Source of the DNA: Picrophilus oshimae DSM 9789
GTDB lineage: Archaea > Thermoplasmatota > Thermoplasmata > Thermoplasmatales > Thermoplasmataceae
Direction: 5' to 3'
Assembly: GCF_900176435.1 (NCBI RefSeq)
Contig: NZ_FWYE01000002.1
Coordinates: forward strand, 248,001 to 312,000
DNA length: 64,000 nt
Positions within the stretch are counted from its first letter, which is position 1, and every line of letters starts with the position of its first letter. Below the pieces are notes generated by a model. The model ran no database searches and was not told where the DNA came from. It saw nothing but the letters and a program-made list of their open reading frames with translations. Of the stretch, positions 967 through 30,745 are shown piece by piece. The position numbers and the translations under genes are program-made.

Positions 967-1737
967 ATGACTGTTGCCTCCACTGATTCCGGTGGTGGTG
1001 CAGGTGTAATGGCAGACCTAAAAACAATGACTGCGCTCAAGGTTTTTGGAACGGCAGTTATAGTATCATTAACTGCCCAGAACAGCGTATCTGTAAGATC
1101 TATATATGAGCTCCCTGAACAGTTTATACGGGATCAGTTCTATGAAATACTGAGCGATATCGGAACAGATGCAGCAAAGACAGGCATGCTTTTTTCTGAG
1201 AATATAATAAACACGGTTTATGATGAGATGAAATCATATAATGTAAAAAATATAGTTATAGATCCCGTAATGGTCTCAAAAACCGGTGCCAGATTACTAA
1301 AGGAGGACGCAATAAAGGCACTTGTAAATAAATTAATGAAGATAGCAACACTTGTTACGCCTAATATACCGGAGGCTGAGGTAATAACCGGCATGAGGAT
1401 ATCGGATCTAAATGATATGAAGAATGCCGCATTAAAAATATATAACATGACCGGCGCATCAGTGCTTATTAAGGGTGGCCATATGGAATCAAGTGTATCA
1501 GAGGATGTACTTTATAACGGTGAATTCTCATTTTATTCTGATAAAAGAATAAACACAAAGAACACGCATGGAACAGGCGATACACTTTCATCTGCAATAG
1601 CATCATACCTTGCAATGGGAAAAACACTTGAGGATTCCATTTCAATGGCCAAGGAGTATATCGAGGGTGCTATTATAAATTCATTTCCCATGGGCAGGGG
1701 ATACGGCCCATTAAACCATTTCTGGAGGATACCATGA
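967..1737 (+). CDS. thiD: Hydroxymethylpyrimidine/phosphomethylpyrimidine kinase ThiD
   Basis: Phosphorylates HMP and HMP-P to HMP-PP for thiamine synthesis; ribokinase-like fold. The N terminus reads VASTDSGGGAG (family IAGSDSGGGAG), PVMVSKTGARLL follows at mid-length, and the C-terminal anion hole/catalytic loop is HGTGDTLSSAIA. At 256 residues it is about the usual length of single-domain ThiD, with no ThiN or ThiE fusion. The first ATG is at 967, but the codons before it (ATA CCA AGG GTA from 955) encode residues matching the usual N-terminal strand (PRV-MTVAS). The biological start may therefore be an ATA at 955. It opens an operon: its TGA overlaps the next ATG (ATGA at 1734). Confidence 0.9.
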   Translation: MTVASTDSGGGAGVMADLKTMTALKVFGTAVIVSLTAQNSVSVRSIYELPEQFIRDQFYEILSDIGTDAAKTGMLFSENIINTVYDEMKSYNVKNIVIDPVMVSKTGARLLKEDAIKALVNKLMKIATLVTPNIPEAEVITGMRISDLNDMKNAALKIYNMTGASVLIKGGHMESSVSEDVLYNGEFSFYSDKRINTKNTHGTGDTLSSAIASYLAMGKTLEDSISMAKEYIEGAIINSFPMGRGYGPLNHFWRIP

Positions 1738-23946: not shown

Positions 23947-25494
23947 ATGTTCTATAATGAAAACACATACATAAAAATGAAGGCCTCTGGAAAAGAGGAT
24001 GAATTTGATAAAAAGTATGAGGAGGCACTTGAATCTGTAAAGGGCTATTTTGGAAAGGAGTATCCAAATATAATAATAAATGACGTAAATGAGGAGAAAA
24101 AAATAAAGGACATATCACCAATAGATGAGAGCGAGCTTGCAGAGTTTCAGCTTGCATCAAAGGAGAGCATTGAAAGGGCCATAGATATTTTAAGCTCTGG
24201 TTATAAAAAATGGTTTCAGGTACCGTATGATGCAAGGGTGAATATAATAGAAAAAGCTTTGAGGATGCTCCAGGAAAGAAAATTTGAATTTGCCGCATTG
24301 CTTACATATGAAAACGGAAAAAACAGATACGAGGCCATGGGCGATGTTGATGAGGCAATAGACTTTATGAAATATTATTCTATGAGCATGATAGAGAACC
24401 ACGGGTTCATAAAATTTACAGGAAAGGCATATGAAAACGAAGAATCAATGAGTTTTATGAAACCATATGGTCTTTTTGCAGTTATATCCCCATTTAATTT
24501 CTTTTCCATAGGTGTTGGCATGACCACCGGACCCTTGATAACAGGCAATGCCGTGCTGTTAAAACCAAGCAGCGATATACCATTATCGCTTTATCTATTT
24601 GTAAGATTATTAATCGAGGCGGGCGTTAATAAAGATGCAATAGCCTTTGTCTCTGGAACAGGAAGCCTCATAGGCGATATAATAACAGAAAATAAAAAGG
24701 TCTCCGGTGTGGTTTTTACAGGCTCAAGGGATGTTGGCCTCAGAATATTTAAAAATGCCACAAAGTATGGCCCAAAGCCTGTTATAACAGAAATGGGAGG
24801 CAAGGACGCCGTTATAATATCAGATAAGGCTGATTTAAAAAAGGCCGTTGAGGGCTGTGTAAGATCATCCTTCGGCTTTGCAGGCCAGAAATGCAGCGCG
24901 TCATCATTAATATATGTCCATGAAAAGATCTACGATGAGTTCATTGAAAAATTTGTTGAGAGAACAAAGAGTATAAAGGTTGGTGACCCAAGGGAGAAAT
25001 CAACGTTTATGAACCCTGTTGTTAACAAAGATGCATATGAAAAATACAAGAAGATGTGTGAGACATACTTCAAGGAGGGGAAAATATTAACAGGCGCAAG
25101 AATCATGGATAGAAAGGGTTACTACGTTGAGCCCACAGTAATCACAGATTTAAAACCGGATTCTTACATAGTAAGGAATGAGATATTTTTACCTGCAGTT
25201 GCAATTATAAAGGTAAAATCCATAGATGACGCGATAAATGATATAAATTCTATGGACTATGGGCTTACAGGTGGAATTTTCACAGAGGATCCAGAGGAGT
25301 ACCAGCATTACTTTGAAAGTGTGGATGTTGGCGTTGTATACGCAAACAGGGCAGCAGGTGCATCAACCGGCGCAATGGTGGGCTCACAGCCATTCGTCGG
25401 CTGGAAGCTAAGTGGAAGCACTGGCAAGGGAACTGGATCATTTTATTATCTAACGCAGTTTTTAAGGGAGCAGTCCATTACCATAGCCCACTAA
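23947..25494 (+). CDS. Aldehyde dehydrogenase, probable 1-pyrroline-5-carboxylate dehydrogenase
   Basis: NAD(P)-dependent oxidation of an aldehyde to the acid. 515 residues. SPFNFF near 181-186, GSRDVG near 259-264, catalytic Glu282 in TEMGGKDAVII and nucleophile Cys316 in GFAGQKCSASS are all present. The C-terminal AAGASTGAMVGSQPFVGWKLSG and the long N terminus are typical of P5C dehydrogenases, which make glutamate in proline and arginine breakdown. Another aldehyde substrate such as glyceraldehyde cannot be excluded. No proline dehydrogenase is adjacent. The last 33 nt overlap lipB on the other strand. Confidence 0.85.
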   Translation: MFYNENTYIKMKASGKEDEFDKKYEEALESVKGYFGKEYPNIIINDVNEEKKIKDISPIDESELAEFQLASKESIERAIDILSSGYKKWFQVPYDARVNIIEKALRMLQERKFEFAALLTYENGKNRYEAMGDVDEAIDFMKYYSMSMIENHGFIKFTGKAYENEESMSFMKPYGLFAVISPFNFFSIGVGMTTGPLITGNAVLLKPSSDIPLSLYLFVRLLIEAGVNKDAIAFVSGTGSLIGDIITENKKVSGVVFTGSRDVGLRIFKNATKYGPKPVITEMGGKDAVIISDKADLKKAVEGCVRSSFGFAGQKCSASSLIYVHEKIYDEFIEKFVERTKSIKVGDPREKSTFMNPVVNKDAYEKYKKMCETYFKEGKILTGARIMDRKGYYVEPTVITDLKPDSYIVRNEIFLPAVAIIKVKSIDDAINDINSMDYGLTGGIFTEDPEEYQHYFESVDVGVVYANRAAGASTGAMVGSQPFVGWKLSGSTGKGTGSFYYLTQFLREQSITIAH

Positions 25495-26118
25495 ATCAAC
25501 ATTTTTGTATATGTTTTTTTCTTTTATATCAAATTCTTTTTCTATTGATTGAATAAGCCTTTCCCTTACAGAATTTATATTAAATGGCCTTCCGGAGATT
25601 CTCTCCATTGATGTCATTATGTCCGGTGAAAAGTTGCATGGCATGATTCTGTTAAATTTTGAAAGATCTGTATTAACATTTAATGCCATGCCATGAAAGG
25701 TGGAAAATCCCCTTATTGCTATGCCTATTGAACATATCTTTCTATCTTCATGCCATACGCCTGTTTTTTCATTAAGCATTGGATAAGATTCAATATTATA
25801 ATATTTAAGCGTGTTTACAACAGAGTTCTGTATTTTTTTTATCAGGTCAAGGGCATTCATTTTTCTTTCCCTTAGATTTATTATAAAGTATACAACAAGC
25901 TGTCCTGGCCCATGGTATGTTTCGTAACCACCACGCTCAACCCTTATAATGTCGTCATTGCCCCTGTAATGAACACCGGCAGTGTATACATCGTTGTGTT
26001 CTAAAAATATAAATGTATCATCTATTTTATCGTTGTTTCTTAGATCAACAAGTTTTCTTTGAAAATAAAGTACAGGTTTATATTCCATTGGGGTTTCAAA
26101 GATTATAAAATCTGGCAT
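25462..26118 (-). CDS. lipB: Octanoyltransferase (lipoyl synthesis) LipB
   Basis: Transfers an octanoyl group from carrier protein to lipoyl domains. 218 residues. The signature RGGYETYHGPGQLVVY, the catalytic lysine in EDRKICSIGIAIR and the catalytic cysteine in RIMPCNFSPD are visible, with GFSTFHGMALNVNTDL between them. The start is ATG 26118 (MPDFIIFE) or ATG 26124 two codons earlier; longer versions add an unrelated hydrophobic stretch and run into the divergent gene. No lipA or 2-oxoacid dehydrogenase gene is near. Confidence 0.9.
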   Translation of the reverse strand: MPDFIIFETPMEYKPVLYFQRKLVDLRNNDKIDDTFIFLEHNDVYTAGVHYRGNDDIIRVERGGYETYHGPGQLVVYFIINLRERKMNALDLIKKIQNSVVNTLKYYNIESYPMLNEKTGVWHEDRKICSIGIAIRGFSTFHGMALNVNTDLSKFNRIMPCNFSPDIMTSMERISGRPFNINSVRERLIQSIEKEFDIKEKNIYKNVDLVGYGNGLLP

Positions 26119-26157
26119 GTTCATAAATATTATTATAGAATAAAAAATTAATGAGAC

Positions 26158-27519
26158 ATGCATATAAGATTTATCAATGGTTTTATGTCCGGCTTTCATT
26201 TGGGCTATTTACAGAATAATAAAAATTTACCAGAAAACAGCGACTGGTACCAGTGGACACATGACAAAAATGTGAGAATGATGAACTATATCAGGGACGG
26301 ATACCCGGAGGATAATAAAATTGAATATCTCAATGATAATGTTATAAGGGATCTGCATGATAATAATTTTAATTTAATAAAAATAGACATGGACTGGCCA
26401 TCCCTATTTCCGGACGGAACCGGCGATATAAACTGCGATGTGAAATTTAATGACAAGGGTGACGTCATAGATATATCAATGAACGACAGGCTTTTTAATG
26501 ATCTAAGGAGGGCCGCCGATGATGGTATTGTTGAAAAGTATTATAATTTCATAGAAAATGCAAGGTCACATGGCATTAAAACAATGGTTACACTTTACGA
26601 TGGCGTTCTTCCATTGTGGCTTCACGATCCCCTTGATACAAATAAAAATATCTTTAAATCAGAAAGATCGGGCTGGCTAAATAAGAACATTGTTGCTGAA
26701 TTTGCAAAGTATGCATATTATATATCAAGAAGAATAAACAATGCAGATTTTTATATAACAATAAACAATGGCAATGATATTATAAATCATGGATATTTAT
26801 ACGGAAATCTTGATGGCTATCCACCAGGGATATCAGGCTACGATGCATCGATAATTTCCATGAGGAATATGGCATATTCGCATAATATTGCATATAAGAT
26901 TCTATCAGGGATAAATAAAACAGGCATATCGGTATCATATAACAATTACATACCATACGATGAGGCTTCCATTGAAATTGCAGATTACACCGGTTATTTA
27001 ATGAATAAATTGATTTTATTTAATTCTCTCTACGGTCTATTTGATAATGATCTATCAAACAGATTTGATGAGAGGAGAATAAATGAATTCCATGGTTCAG
27101 ATTTTATTGAGATTGATTACTCAGGAAACATTTGTACAAAATACACAGGCCAGGATGTATTGCCCTTGCCTTTAAGATTTACATTCATGCCTGTCTGCCC
27201 TGATAATAATGTTGAGCCCATGATGGAAAGGGCCATTTACGATTTATATTCATCATTTAAATTCGATCTATTTACAGGTGAAAAGTTTCCTGGAAATGAT
27301 GATAAAAGATTGGAATTTATTAAAAGATCACTAATTGATGTTCATAAATCAATGAATTTCGTTAAAATCATTGGGAATATCTACTCAACGCTGTATGATG
27401 GCTATGAGTTTTCAAAGGGCTTTGCCGAACGCTGCGGTATGATTGACATAAAAAATAATAAAAAGGATTCATTTTATCTTTATTCGAAAATAATCAATGA
27501 CGGAATAGATGAAAAATAA
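26158..27519 (+). CDS. Glycoside hydrolase family 1 homologue lacking catalytic glutamates (putative pseudoenzyme)
   Basis: 453 residues, alignable by eye with archaeal GH1 beta-glycosidases such as Sulfolobus LacS: FINGFMSGFHLGYLQN (start), DWYQWTHD near 29-36, LPLWLHDP near 151-158, GYPPGISGYDAS near 220-231 and DGYEFSKGF near the C terminus. The acid/base motif T-x-NEP reads TINNG at 201-205, so Glu is Asn204. The region expected to hold the nucleophile motif TENG reads FTGEK at 372-376. The His of the HWxLP motif is Asp (YDGVLP). The frame is intact over the full length, so this is not simple decay. tenA follows by 30 nt, probably on the same transcript. Confidence 0.75.
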   Translation: MHIRFINGFMSGFHLGYLQNNKNLPENSDWYQWTHDKNVRMMNYIRDGYPEDNKIEYLNDNVIRDLHDNNFNLIKIDMDWPSLFPDGTGDINCDVKFNDKGDVIDISMNDRLFNDLRRAADDGIVEKYYNFIENARSHGIKTMVTLYDGVLPLWLHDPLDTNKNIFKSERSGWLNKNIVAEFAKYAYYISRRINNADFYITINNGNDIINHGYLYGNLDGYPPGISGYDASIISMRNMAYSHNIAYKILSGINKTGISVSYNNYIPYDEASIEIADYTGYLMNKLILFNSLYGLFDNDLSNRFDERRINEFHGSDFIEIDYSGNICTKYTGQDVLPLPLRFTFMPVCPDNNVEPMMERAIYDLYSSFKFDLFTGEKFPGNDDKRLEFIKRSLIDVHKSMNFVKIIGNIYSTLYDGYEFSKGFAERCGMIDIKNNKKDSFYLYSKIINDGIDEK

Positions 27520-27549: not shown

Positions 27550-28179
27550 ATGAAATTATCTGATGTTTTAAACGATAAATACATAAAAAGCACTGTTGCA
27601 TCAATAATGAACCATCCGTTTATAAACGAGATGTCCTATGGAACATTAAGCGATGAGAAATTTAAATATTATTTAATACAGGATGACATATATTTAAAAT
27701 ACTATAAGGAAGCGGCATCTGTTATATACAAAAACACCGGGAATGATGATATAAAAGAATTATATGAGATGATTGGCATGGAGGAGCCTGAATTCCATTT
27801 AAAGATGCTTGAGATGTTTAAAATAAACAAAGAGGATATAAATGATTCGATGCTAAATTACACAAATTATTCATATATAAATCATCTTAAAAGGTGGTCA
27901 AATGAAAATGATGTTAAGGGCATGCTTGCAATGTTCCCGTGCCAGTGGACATACGATTTAATAGCGCAAAACACAAAAATAAACGATGATAGATTCAAAT
28001 TCTGGTTCGATTTCTATAAAAATGATAGATACCATGAGATCACAGAGAAGTACCTTTCAATAATGGAAAAACTTGATTTCGATGATTTATATCTCATGAT
28101 AATAAGATACGGCACATTGTATGAATTAAGATACTGGGACGATGCATATTATTCTAAAAGCGATTATATATCATCATAA
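27550..28179 (+). CDS. tenA: TenA family aminopyrimidine aminohydrolase (thiaminase II)
   Basis: Salvages base-degraded thiamine by hydrolysing aminopyrimidines to HMP. 209 residues, all-helical. The active-site Asp is in YYLIQDD near 40-46, the nucleophile Cys131 in FPCQWTYD, and the Glu/Tyr pair in LYELRYWDDAYY near the C terminus. Its product would feed ThiD in the same window. It follows the GH1-like gene by 30 nt and overlaps cdc6 tail to tail by 16 nt. Confidence 0.9.
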   Translation: MKLSDVLNDKYIKSTVASIMNHPFINEMSYGTLSDEKFKYYLIQDDIYLKYYKEAASVIYKNTGNDDIKELYEMIGMEEPEFHLKMLEMFKINKEDINDSMLNYTNYSYINHLKRWSNENDVKGMLAMFPCQWTYDLIAQNTKINDDRFKFWFDFYKNDRYHEITEKYLSIMEKLDFDDLYLMIIRYGTLYELRYWDDAYYSKSDYISS

Positions 28180-29390
28180 TTTGTCCTTAGCTTTGACTGC
28201 CTTACAATCCTTGATCCCTGAAAGTTTTTAAAATTTTCATCCTCCAGTATATAATTTTTTATGGCCACCGGCTGTGAAACCTTTATCAGCTTTGTTCTTC
28301 CATACCTGCCCATGCTCCTGGTTGTGGTTACTATTAATCCTAGATCATCCAGGGATGACATTAAATCTGATATTCTTCTTGTTGATAATGGTTGAAGACC
28401 TATCTCGGCGCATATGTTTTTATAATTTTCATAGATTTCACCGGTAACCGCTATATCTGAGCTGACCTCCTGGGTTAGTATTGCGCTTAAAAGCACCATC
28501 TTCGAGTGGATTGGCAGTGTCTTCACAGATTCCTTTAATATGTTCATTTCAAAGCGCTCCCTTGCCATGTATATATCATCTATCGTTACCCTTTCCCTGT
28601 TTTCTCTAATACAGTATTCTATTGCTATTCTTAATAGCTCTATGGCCTTTCTTGCGTCTCCATGTTCCTGGGCGCCAATGGCAGCGCAAAGATTTATTGC
28701 CGAGTCTTCTATGAAACCATTCTTTATAACGCCGTTGATCCTGAATTTTAATATATCGCGGAGCTCGTCTGCATTATACGGCGTAAAAATTATGCTCTCG
28801 GCGTTGAGCCTGCTCCTAACACGCATGTCAAGCTTGTTTATAAACGACGAGTCGTTTGTTATACCTATAATTGAGCCCTCTGTATCCCCCAGAAGCTTTA
28901 AGATTACATAAAGTGAGTCGCTGCCGTTCTTTGATAAAAGCCGGTCTATCTCATCAAGTATTATTAATGTATACAGGTTTCTTGATTTTATTCTTTTAAC
29001 AAGCTCGTAGTATATCCTGTCAAATGGCAGTCCAAGATTTGGTATCTGCTCCTCCCCGATAAAGGAATTCACCATATGAACCATAATTGAATAGTGAGAA
29101 TCATAGATCTCGCAATTTATGTAATGAATTGAAACGCGGTCGCCGGCCGCACTCCTGAGCATGTTCGTTACATTAATTGCGGATGATGTTTTTCCAGATC
29201 CTGACTGGCCATAAAGTAGAATATTCGATGCAATGCCGCCATGCATGATCGAGCTCAGGGATCTTGCCATAAGCTCAATCTGCTGCTCCCTATGGGGTAG
29301 ATTGTCAGGTATGTATGAACTGCTAAGCGTTTTTAAATTACCGATAATATAATCATCAGACCTTGAATATTTAATAAAGGGATTGTCCAT
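28164..29390 (-). CDS. cdc6: Orc1/Cdc6 replication initiator
   Basis: Origin-binding AAA+ ATPase that loads MCM. 408 residues. Walker A GQSGSGKT at 61-68, Walker B with DEID at 146-149, sensor 1 IIGITND, and a C-terminal winged helix (RRISDLMSSLDDLGLIVTTT). The start is ATG 29390; GTG 29396 is an alternative. Origins are often next to cdc6 genes in archaea, but only about 47 bp separate this gene from folC and no origin-recognition-box array was seen. Confidence 0.95.
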   Translation of the reverse strand: MDNPFIKYSRSDDYIIGNLKTLSSSYIPDNLPHREQQIELMARSLSSIMHGGIASNILLYGQSGSGKTSSAINVTNMLRSAAGDRVSIHYINCEIYDSHYSIMVHMVNSFIGEEQIPNLGLPFDRIYYELVKRIKSRNLYTLIILDEIDRLLSKNGSDSLYVILKLLGDTEGSIIGITNDSSFINKLDMRVRSRLNAESIIFTPYNADELRDILKFRINGVIKNGFIEDSAINLCAAIGAQEHGDARKAIELLRIAIEYCIRENRERVTIDDIYMARERFEMNILKESVKTLPIHSKMVLLSAILTQEVSSDIAVTGEIYENYKNICAEIGLQPLSTRRISDLMSSLDDLGLIVTTTRSMGRYGRTKLIKVSQPVAIKNYILEDENFKNFQGSRIVRQSKLRTNYDDI

Positions 29391-29437
29391 AGGCACCAGC
29401 GGTTATAAGTTATTAGGTCAATATACTAAAATATTTT

Positions 29438-30745
29438 TTAACCAATTTCTTTACTGATTTTTTTACCAATATCTATAAATGGAAGGATGCCAACCTTTTC
29501 CCTTGACATTATATCGCCTATTAAATACATTGATCCACAGACAAGAATGCAGTCACTGTTTTTTAATGAGTAATCATATGCCGATAAAGGGTCCTTTATT
29601 ATCTTTACATCCCTGTATATTGATGATGCAATATCCTTTATATTATCCGGGTCCAGGGCCCTGTCCGGCTCATTCGGCATTGTTAAAACTATTTTATCTG
29701 ATAGCTGCCTCATAATTGTTAAAAATGAAAAGACGTCCTTGTCAGAAAGCATGCCAATTAACAAAAGCGGCTTCTTTTTTATGAATTTTTTGAACGATGG
29801 TACCAGATTGCTTGCTGCCGGTGGATTATGTGCAGAGTCTATTATTACCAGCGGGGATGCCCTTATGATCTCCATCCTGCCATGCCATATGGCCTTATCT
29901 ATACCGCTTTCAACATCATGCTTATTTATACTTGTATCCATGTTTTCCAGTGCTGCAACGGCCGTTTTTATATTTTTTACCTGGTAGAGCCCCAGATTAT
30001 TTGATTCTATATGATACTCGTTTAACGGCGTTTTTAAATCAAAGACCATCTTAAAATTGTATAGCTCAGGCTCCGTGCTTTTTGAGTAATCCTCGGATAG
30101 TATCAATTTTGATTTTCTCACCTGTGATAATTTTTTTATCTCTGCCAGAACCTCAGGCTTTTTATCCTGCAGGACAACGGGTATTCCGGGCTTTATTATA
30201 CCACCCTTCTCATATGCTATGGATGTAAGCGAGCAGCCAAGCTTCTGGTAGTGCTCGTAACCTATCTGGCCTATTATGCTTATCTCCGGAATTATAATGT
30301 TTGTTGAATCAAGACGGCCGCCAAGGCCAACCTCTATTGCAGCATAATCAGCATGCATATCATAAAAATACTTAAAGGCCATGACCGTTGTTGTCTCAAA
30401 AAATGTTGGATTCATTTTTATTTTTGATAGCTTATCTATATATTCCCTGTTTTCAGAGATAAAATTTATTATATAATCATCGCTGATCATTTCCTTATTA
30501 AATATAATTCTCTCGTTAAATTTTATAAGATGTGGTGACGTGTATAATCCTGTATTATATCTCTGCCTTAATATATTATATATGTAGCTTGATATTGAAC
30601 CCTTTCCATTGGTTCCTGCAATATGTATCTTTTTATATTTATCCTGTGGATTGCCAAGATGTTCTGCAAAGGCCCTGGTTGTATCAAGGCCAAGCTTTAT
30701 ACCCTCACGCTTTAATTCGTAAAGATAGTTTAAAATATCGTCCAT
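29438..30745 (-). CDS. folC: Folylpolyglutamate synthase/dihydrofolate synthase FolC
   Basis: Adds glutamate to folates. Mur-ligase superfamily, 435 residues. HIAGTNGKGS at 41-50 is the P-loop, TSPHLIKFNERI the omega-loop region, IEVGLGGRLDSTN the second signature, and IDSAHNPPA the linker motif into the C-terminal domain. Presence of FolC with Fhs, FtcD and FchA points to a tetrahydrofolate-type carrier in this organism. It lies upstream of cdc6 on the same strand (47 nt) and is divergent from the gene at 30825. Confidence 0.93.
   Translation of the reverse strand: MDDILNYLYELKREGIKLGLDTTRAFAEHLGNPQDKYKKIHIAGTNGKGSISSYIYNILRQRYNTGLYTSPHLIKFNERIIFNKEMISDDYIINFISENREYIDKLSKIKMNPTFFETTTVMAFKYFYDMHADYAAIEVGLGGRLDSTNIIIPEISIIGQIGYEHYQKLGCSLTSIAYEKGGIIKPGIPVVLQDKKPEVLAEIKKLSQVRKSKLILSEDYSKSTEPELYNFKMVFDLKTPLNEYHIESNNLGLYQVKNIKTAVAALENMDTSINKHDVESGIDKAIWHGRMEIIRASPLVIIDSAHNPPAASNLVPSFKKFIKKKPLLLIGMLSDKDVFSFLTIMRQLSDKIVLTMPNEPDRALDPDNIKDIASSIYRDVKIIKDPLSAYDYSLKNSDCILVCGSMYLIGDIMSREKVGILPFIDIGKKISKEIG

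Follow-up and report, generated by a model that had tools for sequence, protein, structure and literature searches.

The question raised by this locus is whether a GH1 gene with altered catalytic motifs still encodes an enzyme, is retained for another purpose, or is on its way to being lost. The gene lies between lipB and tenA in a 64,000 nucleotide stretch of the Picrophilus oshimae DSM 9789 genome, here called the window (Table 1).

The GH1 gene and its neighborhood

The gene is real and belongs to the GH1 family over its full length. The frame is open throughout, and the 453 amino acid product matches the Pfam GH1 profile (PF00232) with 74.8 bits and an E-value of 6e-21 (cut-off 22.6 bits). 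In phmmer comparisons, residues 25-436 align with archaeal GH1 beta-glycosidases of solved structure, best with 4ha3 (E-value 6e-38), which bears out the original prediction of a GH1 scaffold along the whole length. A (beta/alpha)8 barrel would be expected from this match to GH1 chains of known structure along almost the entire protein; the AlphaFold2 model, built from two sequences, has a pLDDT of 35. The NCBIfam BgaS model (NF041004) requires 475 bits, and the window protein scores 160.9, below the cut-off. The only other GH1 protein of the same genome (1.53 Mb in 6 contigs) has intact motifs and scores 530.4 bits, above the cut-off. A chance open frame could be dismissed, because a sister species (contig JAKAYN010000020.1) carries the gene at 74% protein identity and in identical gene order.

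Table 1. Genes and codons at the GH1 locus of the window
Feature	Position	Strand	Remark
ThiD-family kinase	985-1716	+	
lipB (lipoyl ligase family)	25462-26124	-	divergent neighbor, conserved locus border; start set to match the sister species (L032)
GH1-family protein, altered orthologue of archaeal beta-glycosidase	26158-27519	+	453 aa; Pfam, structure-chain matches, synteny
Lys75 codon	26380-26382	+	replaces Arg invariant in 19 intact relatives
Asp148-Gly149 codons	26599-26604	+	replace sugar-subsite His-Trp
Asn204 codon	26767-26769	+	acid/base Glu place (TINNG)
Glu375 codon	27280-27282	+	retained nucleophile Glu (FTGEK)
Ser410 codon	27385-27387	+	replaces Trp426 (CIB12 numbering)
Phe418 codon	27409-27411	+	replaces Trp434 (CIB12 numbering)
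tenA (TENA/THI-4 family)	27550-28179	+	30 bp downstream of GH1; linkage conserved
gene taken by us to be cdc6/orc1-like	28164-29396	-	served for species tree
gene taken by us to be folC-like	29438-30745	-	conserved neighbor

The order of a divergent lipB followed by GH1 and tenA is common to the window and to the intact GH1 genes of a related genus. This identical place identifies the window gene as their altered orthologue. We searched the window and regions of 14 other genomes with the neighbor genes. GH1 directly adjoins tenA in 12 of the 15 regions, namely in the window, G001 and G035, where it is altered, and in nine genomes of genus g10, where the motifs are intact. In the other three (G019 and G077, both of the genus of G035, and G090) it is not beside tenA. 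In the G077 region, tenA and an ABC transporter gene are 259 bp apart (L087 7323-7582). This gap has short matches to both GH1 ends on the right strand (best E-value 3e-6), and is thus a GH1 stump left by an inner deletion. Nothing clear of GH1 is left in the gap beside tenA in G019. Hence, in this third genus, two of three genomes have no GH1 gene beside tenA, one of them with a stump only, and one species (G035) has an altered gene. As judged from these regions, the adjacency to tenA is old and conserved, and predates the loss of the acid/base residue. Since the link is older than this loss, and since tenA persists without GH1, adjacency alone is no sign of joint function.

The altered gene of G035 (L063 9156-10595, plus strand) is known from a single genome. 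Its acid/base residue is Arg (TMNRP), the His-Trp pair is replaced by Asp-Gly, the TENG motif is intact, and tenA follows after 30 bp. The GH1 genome search gave no other GH1 match in G035. Among 389 sampled genomes of the phylum, no further match scored near the altered proteins. A scan of viral contigs found no relative of the window protein. In G094 (L090 7430-8896, minus strand), the GH1 gene beside tenA has intact motifs, but its codon for Trp149 reads TGA, the single stop in the frame, which may reflect a pseudogene, recoding or a sequencing error; the residue at this site is Gly in the altered proteins. A two-gene ABC transporter is found between lipB and GH1/tenA in the other two genera (L063 7104-8842, L064 5338-7106, L086, L087), and is missing from the lipB-GH1 interval in the window and the sister species. 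The co-transcription of GH1 and tenA that the original prediction held to be probable is putative, and an A/T-rich, TATA-like stretch precedes tenA.

Residues of the active site

According to the original prediction, both catalytic glutamates were replaced. This is correct for the acid/base residue, and does not hold for the nucleophile. In phmmer alignments and in MAFFT alignments of 3, 8 and 41 rows, the acid/base Glu corresponds to Asn204, and the motif reads TINNG instead of TxNEP, as had been stated. The Glu375 of FTGEK aligns on the Glu of TENG or LENG in the same MAFFT sets and in phmmer comparisons with 4ha3 and 1qvb. Only the surrounding letters differ, the preceding T and the following N-G being replaced, and these changes had been mistaken for loss of the residue itself. 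The Glu375 column is invariant in the 8-row alignment, and is Glu in all 41 rows of the largest set, which comprises loci from the GH1 genome search, with several weaker matches, some repeat copies of places already included and L019 (which ends before the nucleophile) left aside. At the acid/base place, 38 of the 41 rows have Glu. The exceptions are the window and sister proteins, with Asn, and G035, with Arg. The sister protein (L032) shares N204-G205 and G-E-K with the window protein. Asn204, whose conservation among orthologues had been left to a survey, is thus kept in both species of the genus, and not in G035. With respect to the two catalytic residues of a retaining beta-glycosidase, the window protein has the nucleophile and lacks the acid/base Glu, as a GH1 pseudoenzyme may; it does not have the Gln that thioglucosidases carry at this place.

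The residues that hold the sugar are also largely replaced. The numbering of CIB12 and CIB13 could be used because L028 and L031 bear, at the respective positions, the residues given in the available text of PMC11376072. In CIB12 numbering, the changes in the window protein are H148D, W149G, Y321 to S322, W426 to S410 and W434 to F418, so that in place of the His-Trp pair and the two tryptophans of a retaining beta-glycosidase there are D148, G149, S410 and F418. Asn203, Glu388 (as Glu375) and Glu433 (as Glu417) are unchanged. Ser322 is also present in the sister, and Tyr is retained in G035. None of the three altered proteins has lost the Tyr next to this site, Tyr321 in the window protein. 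The altered residues are conserved between the window and the sister species except for Asp148, which is Asn in the sister, and the acidic pocket is thus incompletely conserved. In excerpts of PMC11376072, alanine mutants indicate that both Glu residues, His148 and Trp426 of CIB12, and Tyr320 and Trp431 of CIB13 matter for activity.

In 19 intact relatives, 92 columns are invariant. Both species of the window genus differ at 43 of these and G035 at 28, and 23 of the changed columns are common to the genus and G035. Neither in these columns nor in the 41-row alignment did we see a new conserved acid near the acid/base place that would be common to the three altered proteins.

Selection and evolutionary history

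The window and sister GH1 genes differ by a dN of 0.157 and a dS of 1.57, with a dN/dS of 0.10 (bootstrap 0.063-0.148), which is a rough value, as dS is near saturation; the genus is represented by two species. It is inside the range of 0.033-0.114 for seven neighbor genes, which argues against a decaying pseudogene. There is no stop or frameshift between the two species despite about 26% protein divergence, and a frame unbroken over such divergence speaks for function. The data thus support a retained, altered GH1 protein under purifying selection after the change. Pocket segments are identical at 57 of 68 positions between the two species, compared to 277 of 384 elsewhere (p 0.051), and intact pairs differ in the same direction. 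On this borderline result, the changed pocket seems not to have been left drifting, and to be at least as conserved as the remainder. Residues 1-150 (26158-26607 in the window) are only 57-61% identical between the two species, in contrast to 79-85% for the rest. This differs from intact GH1 pairs, which are well conserved over the first 75 residues.

In the GH1 tree, the window genus has a long stem of 1.7-2.0 changes per column, compared to 0.49 for four neighbor proteins, so that constraint came after a burst of change. In a rooted cdc6 tree built without G038, G040 and G046, which belong to other families, the window genus falls outside the other two genera (98/96). In the GH1 tree of all columns it groups with G035 (99/99 and 98/98), with a p-AU of 0.054 for the species arrangement; when the active-site columns are removed, neither arrangement is favored (p 0.51). 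The 23 of 92 invariant columns that are changed in both the window genus and G035 exceed the 13 expected by chance (p 6e-6). At 8 of these 23, the window protein and G035 have the same letter, where 1.8 would be expected under a rough model based on BLOSUM62 and approximate background frequencies. These comparisons are consistent both with a shared origin of the altered proteins and with parallel change. A single syntenic locus offers a natural series of intact GH1, a rebuilt pocket under selection, a single-species alteration and a stump, in which the steps that turn an enzyme into a pseudoenzyme can be tested directly, the intact orthologues serving as controls.

Possible roles of the altered protein

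Without the acid/base Glu and several residues of the sugar site, the window protein has probably lost normal hydrolysis. Ordinary hydrolysis would be unlikely in view of the chemistry established for GH1 and of the CIB12 and CIB13 mutants. We lean, on balance, towards a selected GH1 pseudoenzyme with a rebuilt pocket, probably non-hydrolytic and with a putative binding role. The common ancestor would have carried a GH1 beta-glycosidase gene flanked by lipB and tenA, and this gene would have been rebuilt in the window genus, where loss of the acid/base and sugar-holding residues would have abolished hydrolysis of ordinary beta-glycosides. The product may be a soluble cytoplasmic binding protein, in which a widened acidic TIM-barrel pocket (Asp148, Glu375, Glu417) could hold a small ligand, or the surface could bind a partner. 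The intact paralogue of the same genome might then cover the glycosidase work, although the altered protein of G035, with no other GH1 match in its genome, indicates that such cover is not general. The nucleophile Glu in all three altered proteins counts against the binding role, since a plain binder needs none. We found no report of an archaeal GH1 pseudoenzyme in a literature search.

A binding role appears preferable to a changed enzyme, which we consider a doubtful but serious alternative. In such an enzyme, Glu375 would remain the nucleophile, and the part of the acid/base residue would be taken by a substrate that carries a good leaving group, by an acid from outside, or by phosphate, a thiol or another strong acceptor. 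The best argument is the kept Glu375 itself, which persists in the three altered proteins although the T, N and G around it have changed in the window genus. There are also plant precedents in the available text of PMC1781453, both for GH1 proteins in which Gln replaces the acid/base Glu and for a purine-ring hydrolase devoid of the glucose-binding residues. However, the sugar-holding residues of subsite -1 are mostly gone, the residue at the acid/base place varies (Asn, Asn, Arg), and there is no common new acid nearby. If Glu375 still does chemistry, this would be an archaeal GH1 protein that works without an acid/base residue. The original prediction had proposed selection on a non-hydrolytic or changed role. 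The selection and the likely loss of normal hydrolysis agree with this, but the nucleophile is not lost, which leaves a changed mechanism more open, and a pure pseudoenzyme less certain, than had been thought. It is very unlikely that the protein still is a slow beta-glycosidase of the ordinary kind, drawing its acid/base group from another part of the pocket. The nucleophile, Asn203 and Glu417 would be in place for it, but the equivalents of the acid/base residue, His148, Trp149 and Trp426 have all changed, and several such single mutations impair CIB12 or CIB13 (PMC11376072, in excerpt).

The gene could also be in decay: catalysis would have been given up when the intact paralogue was enough, and the recency of the loss would be all that explains the open frame. 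The losses and the stump in the third genus, the TGA in the G094 gene with its intact motif, and the long stem of the window genus would fit such a course. It is nevertheless improbable, because it is weakened by the low dN/dS and the intact frame at near-saturated silent sites, and the altered residues, Asp148 excepted, are conserved between the two species.

The product of the conserved neighbor tenA matches the TENA/THI-4 family, with a thiaminase II TenA match below the cut-off. ThiC was matched in none of five genomes of the three genera (13 of 14 control genomes were positive), and ThiD-family matches were present in all five (window, G035, G019, G010, G092). These archaea thus seem to do without the common pathway to the thiamin pyrimidine; its salvage by TenA is plausible, and perhaps important. 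A GH1 barrel turned into a hydrolase or carrier for an N-heterocycle in this salvage, working alongside TenA with Glu375 as nucleophile, is conceivable by analogy with the soybean GH1-family enzyme and its purine ring, but very improbable. Matches to Peptidase_M20, which we take to be the family of the deformylase acting before TenA, occur in all five genomes (5 to 7 each), so that no missing salvage step points to the window protein. If this role were real, the same kind of pocket change would have been kept for it in two genera.

Comparison with known GH1 proteins

The LacS/BgaS-type GH1 beta-glycosidases of archaea (CIB12, CIB13, 4ha3, 1qvb) resemble the window protein in family, length, gene place in related genomes, and in the nucleophile Glu, Asn203 and Glu417. 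They differ from it in the acid/base Glu (Asn in the window protein), the His-Trp pair (Asp-Gly) and the two pocket tryptophans (lost), and the window protein is below the BgaS cut-off.

Klotho is an extracellular tandem-domain co-receptor, and its KL1 domain has Asn at the acid/base place and a kept nucleophile. Unlike Klotho, the window protein is single-domain and archaeal. The KL domains of Klotho are animal GH1-like domains that, in the available text of PMC8204227, are without a key catalytic Glu, as is the window protein, and are thought to bind rather than cut.

Plant Gln-type GH1 proteins differ from the altered archaeal proteins in having Gln instead of Asn or Arg, and in the window protein sugar-site residues have additionally been lost. 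In the thioglucosidase (myrosinase), ascorbate serves as an outside base. The soybean hydroxyisourate hydrolase, also of the GH1 family, keeps both Glu residues, and has HENG in place of the FTGEK of the window protein. In excerpts of PMC1781453, Gln takes the acid/base place in rice Os4bglu14 and Os9bglu33 and in the plant thioglucosidases, which thus share with the window protein the loss of the acid/base carboxylate and the kept nucleophile. The soybean enzyme, which opens a purine ring and retains the nucleophile in its HENG motif, has likewise lost the glucose-binding residues (PMC1781453, in excerpt). GH1 proteins without a catalytic Glu are thus known in animals (PMC8204227) and plants (PMC1781453).
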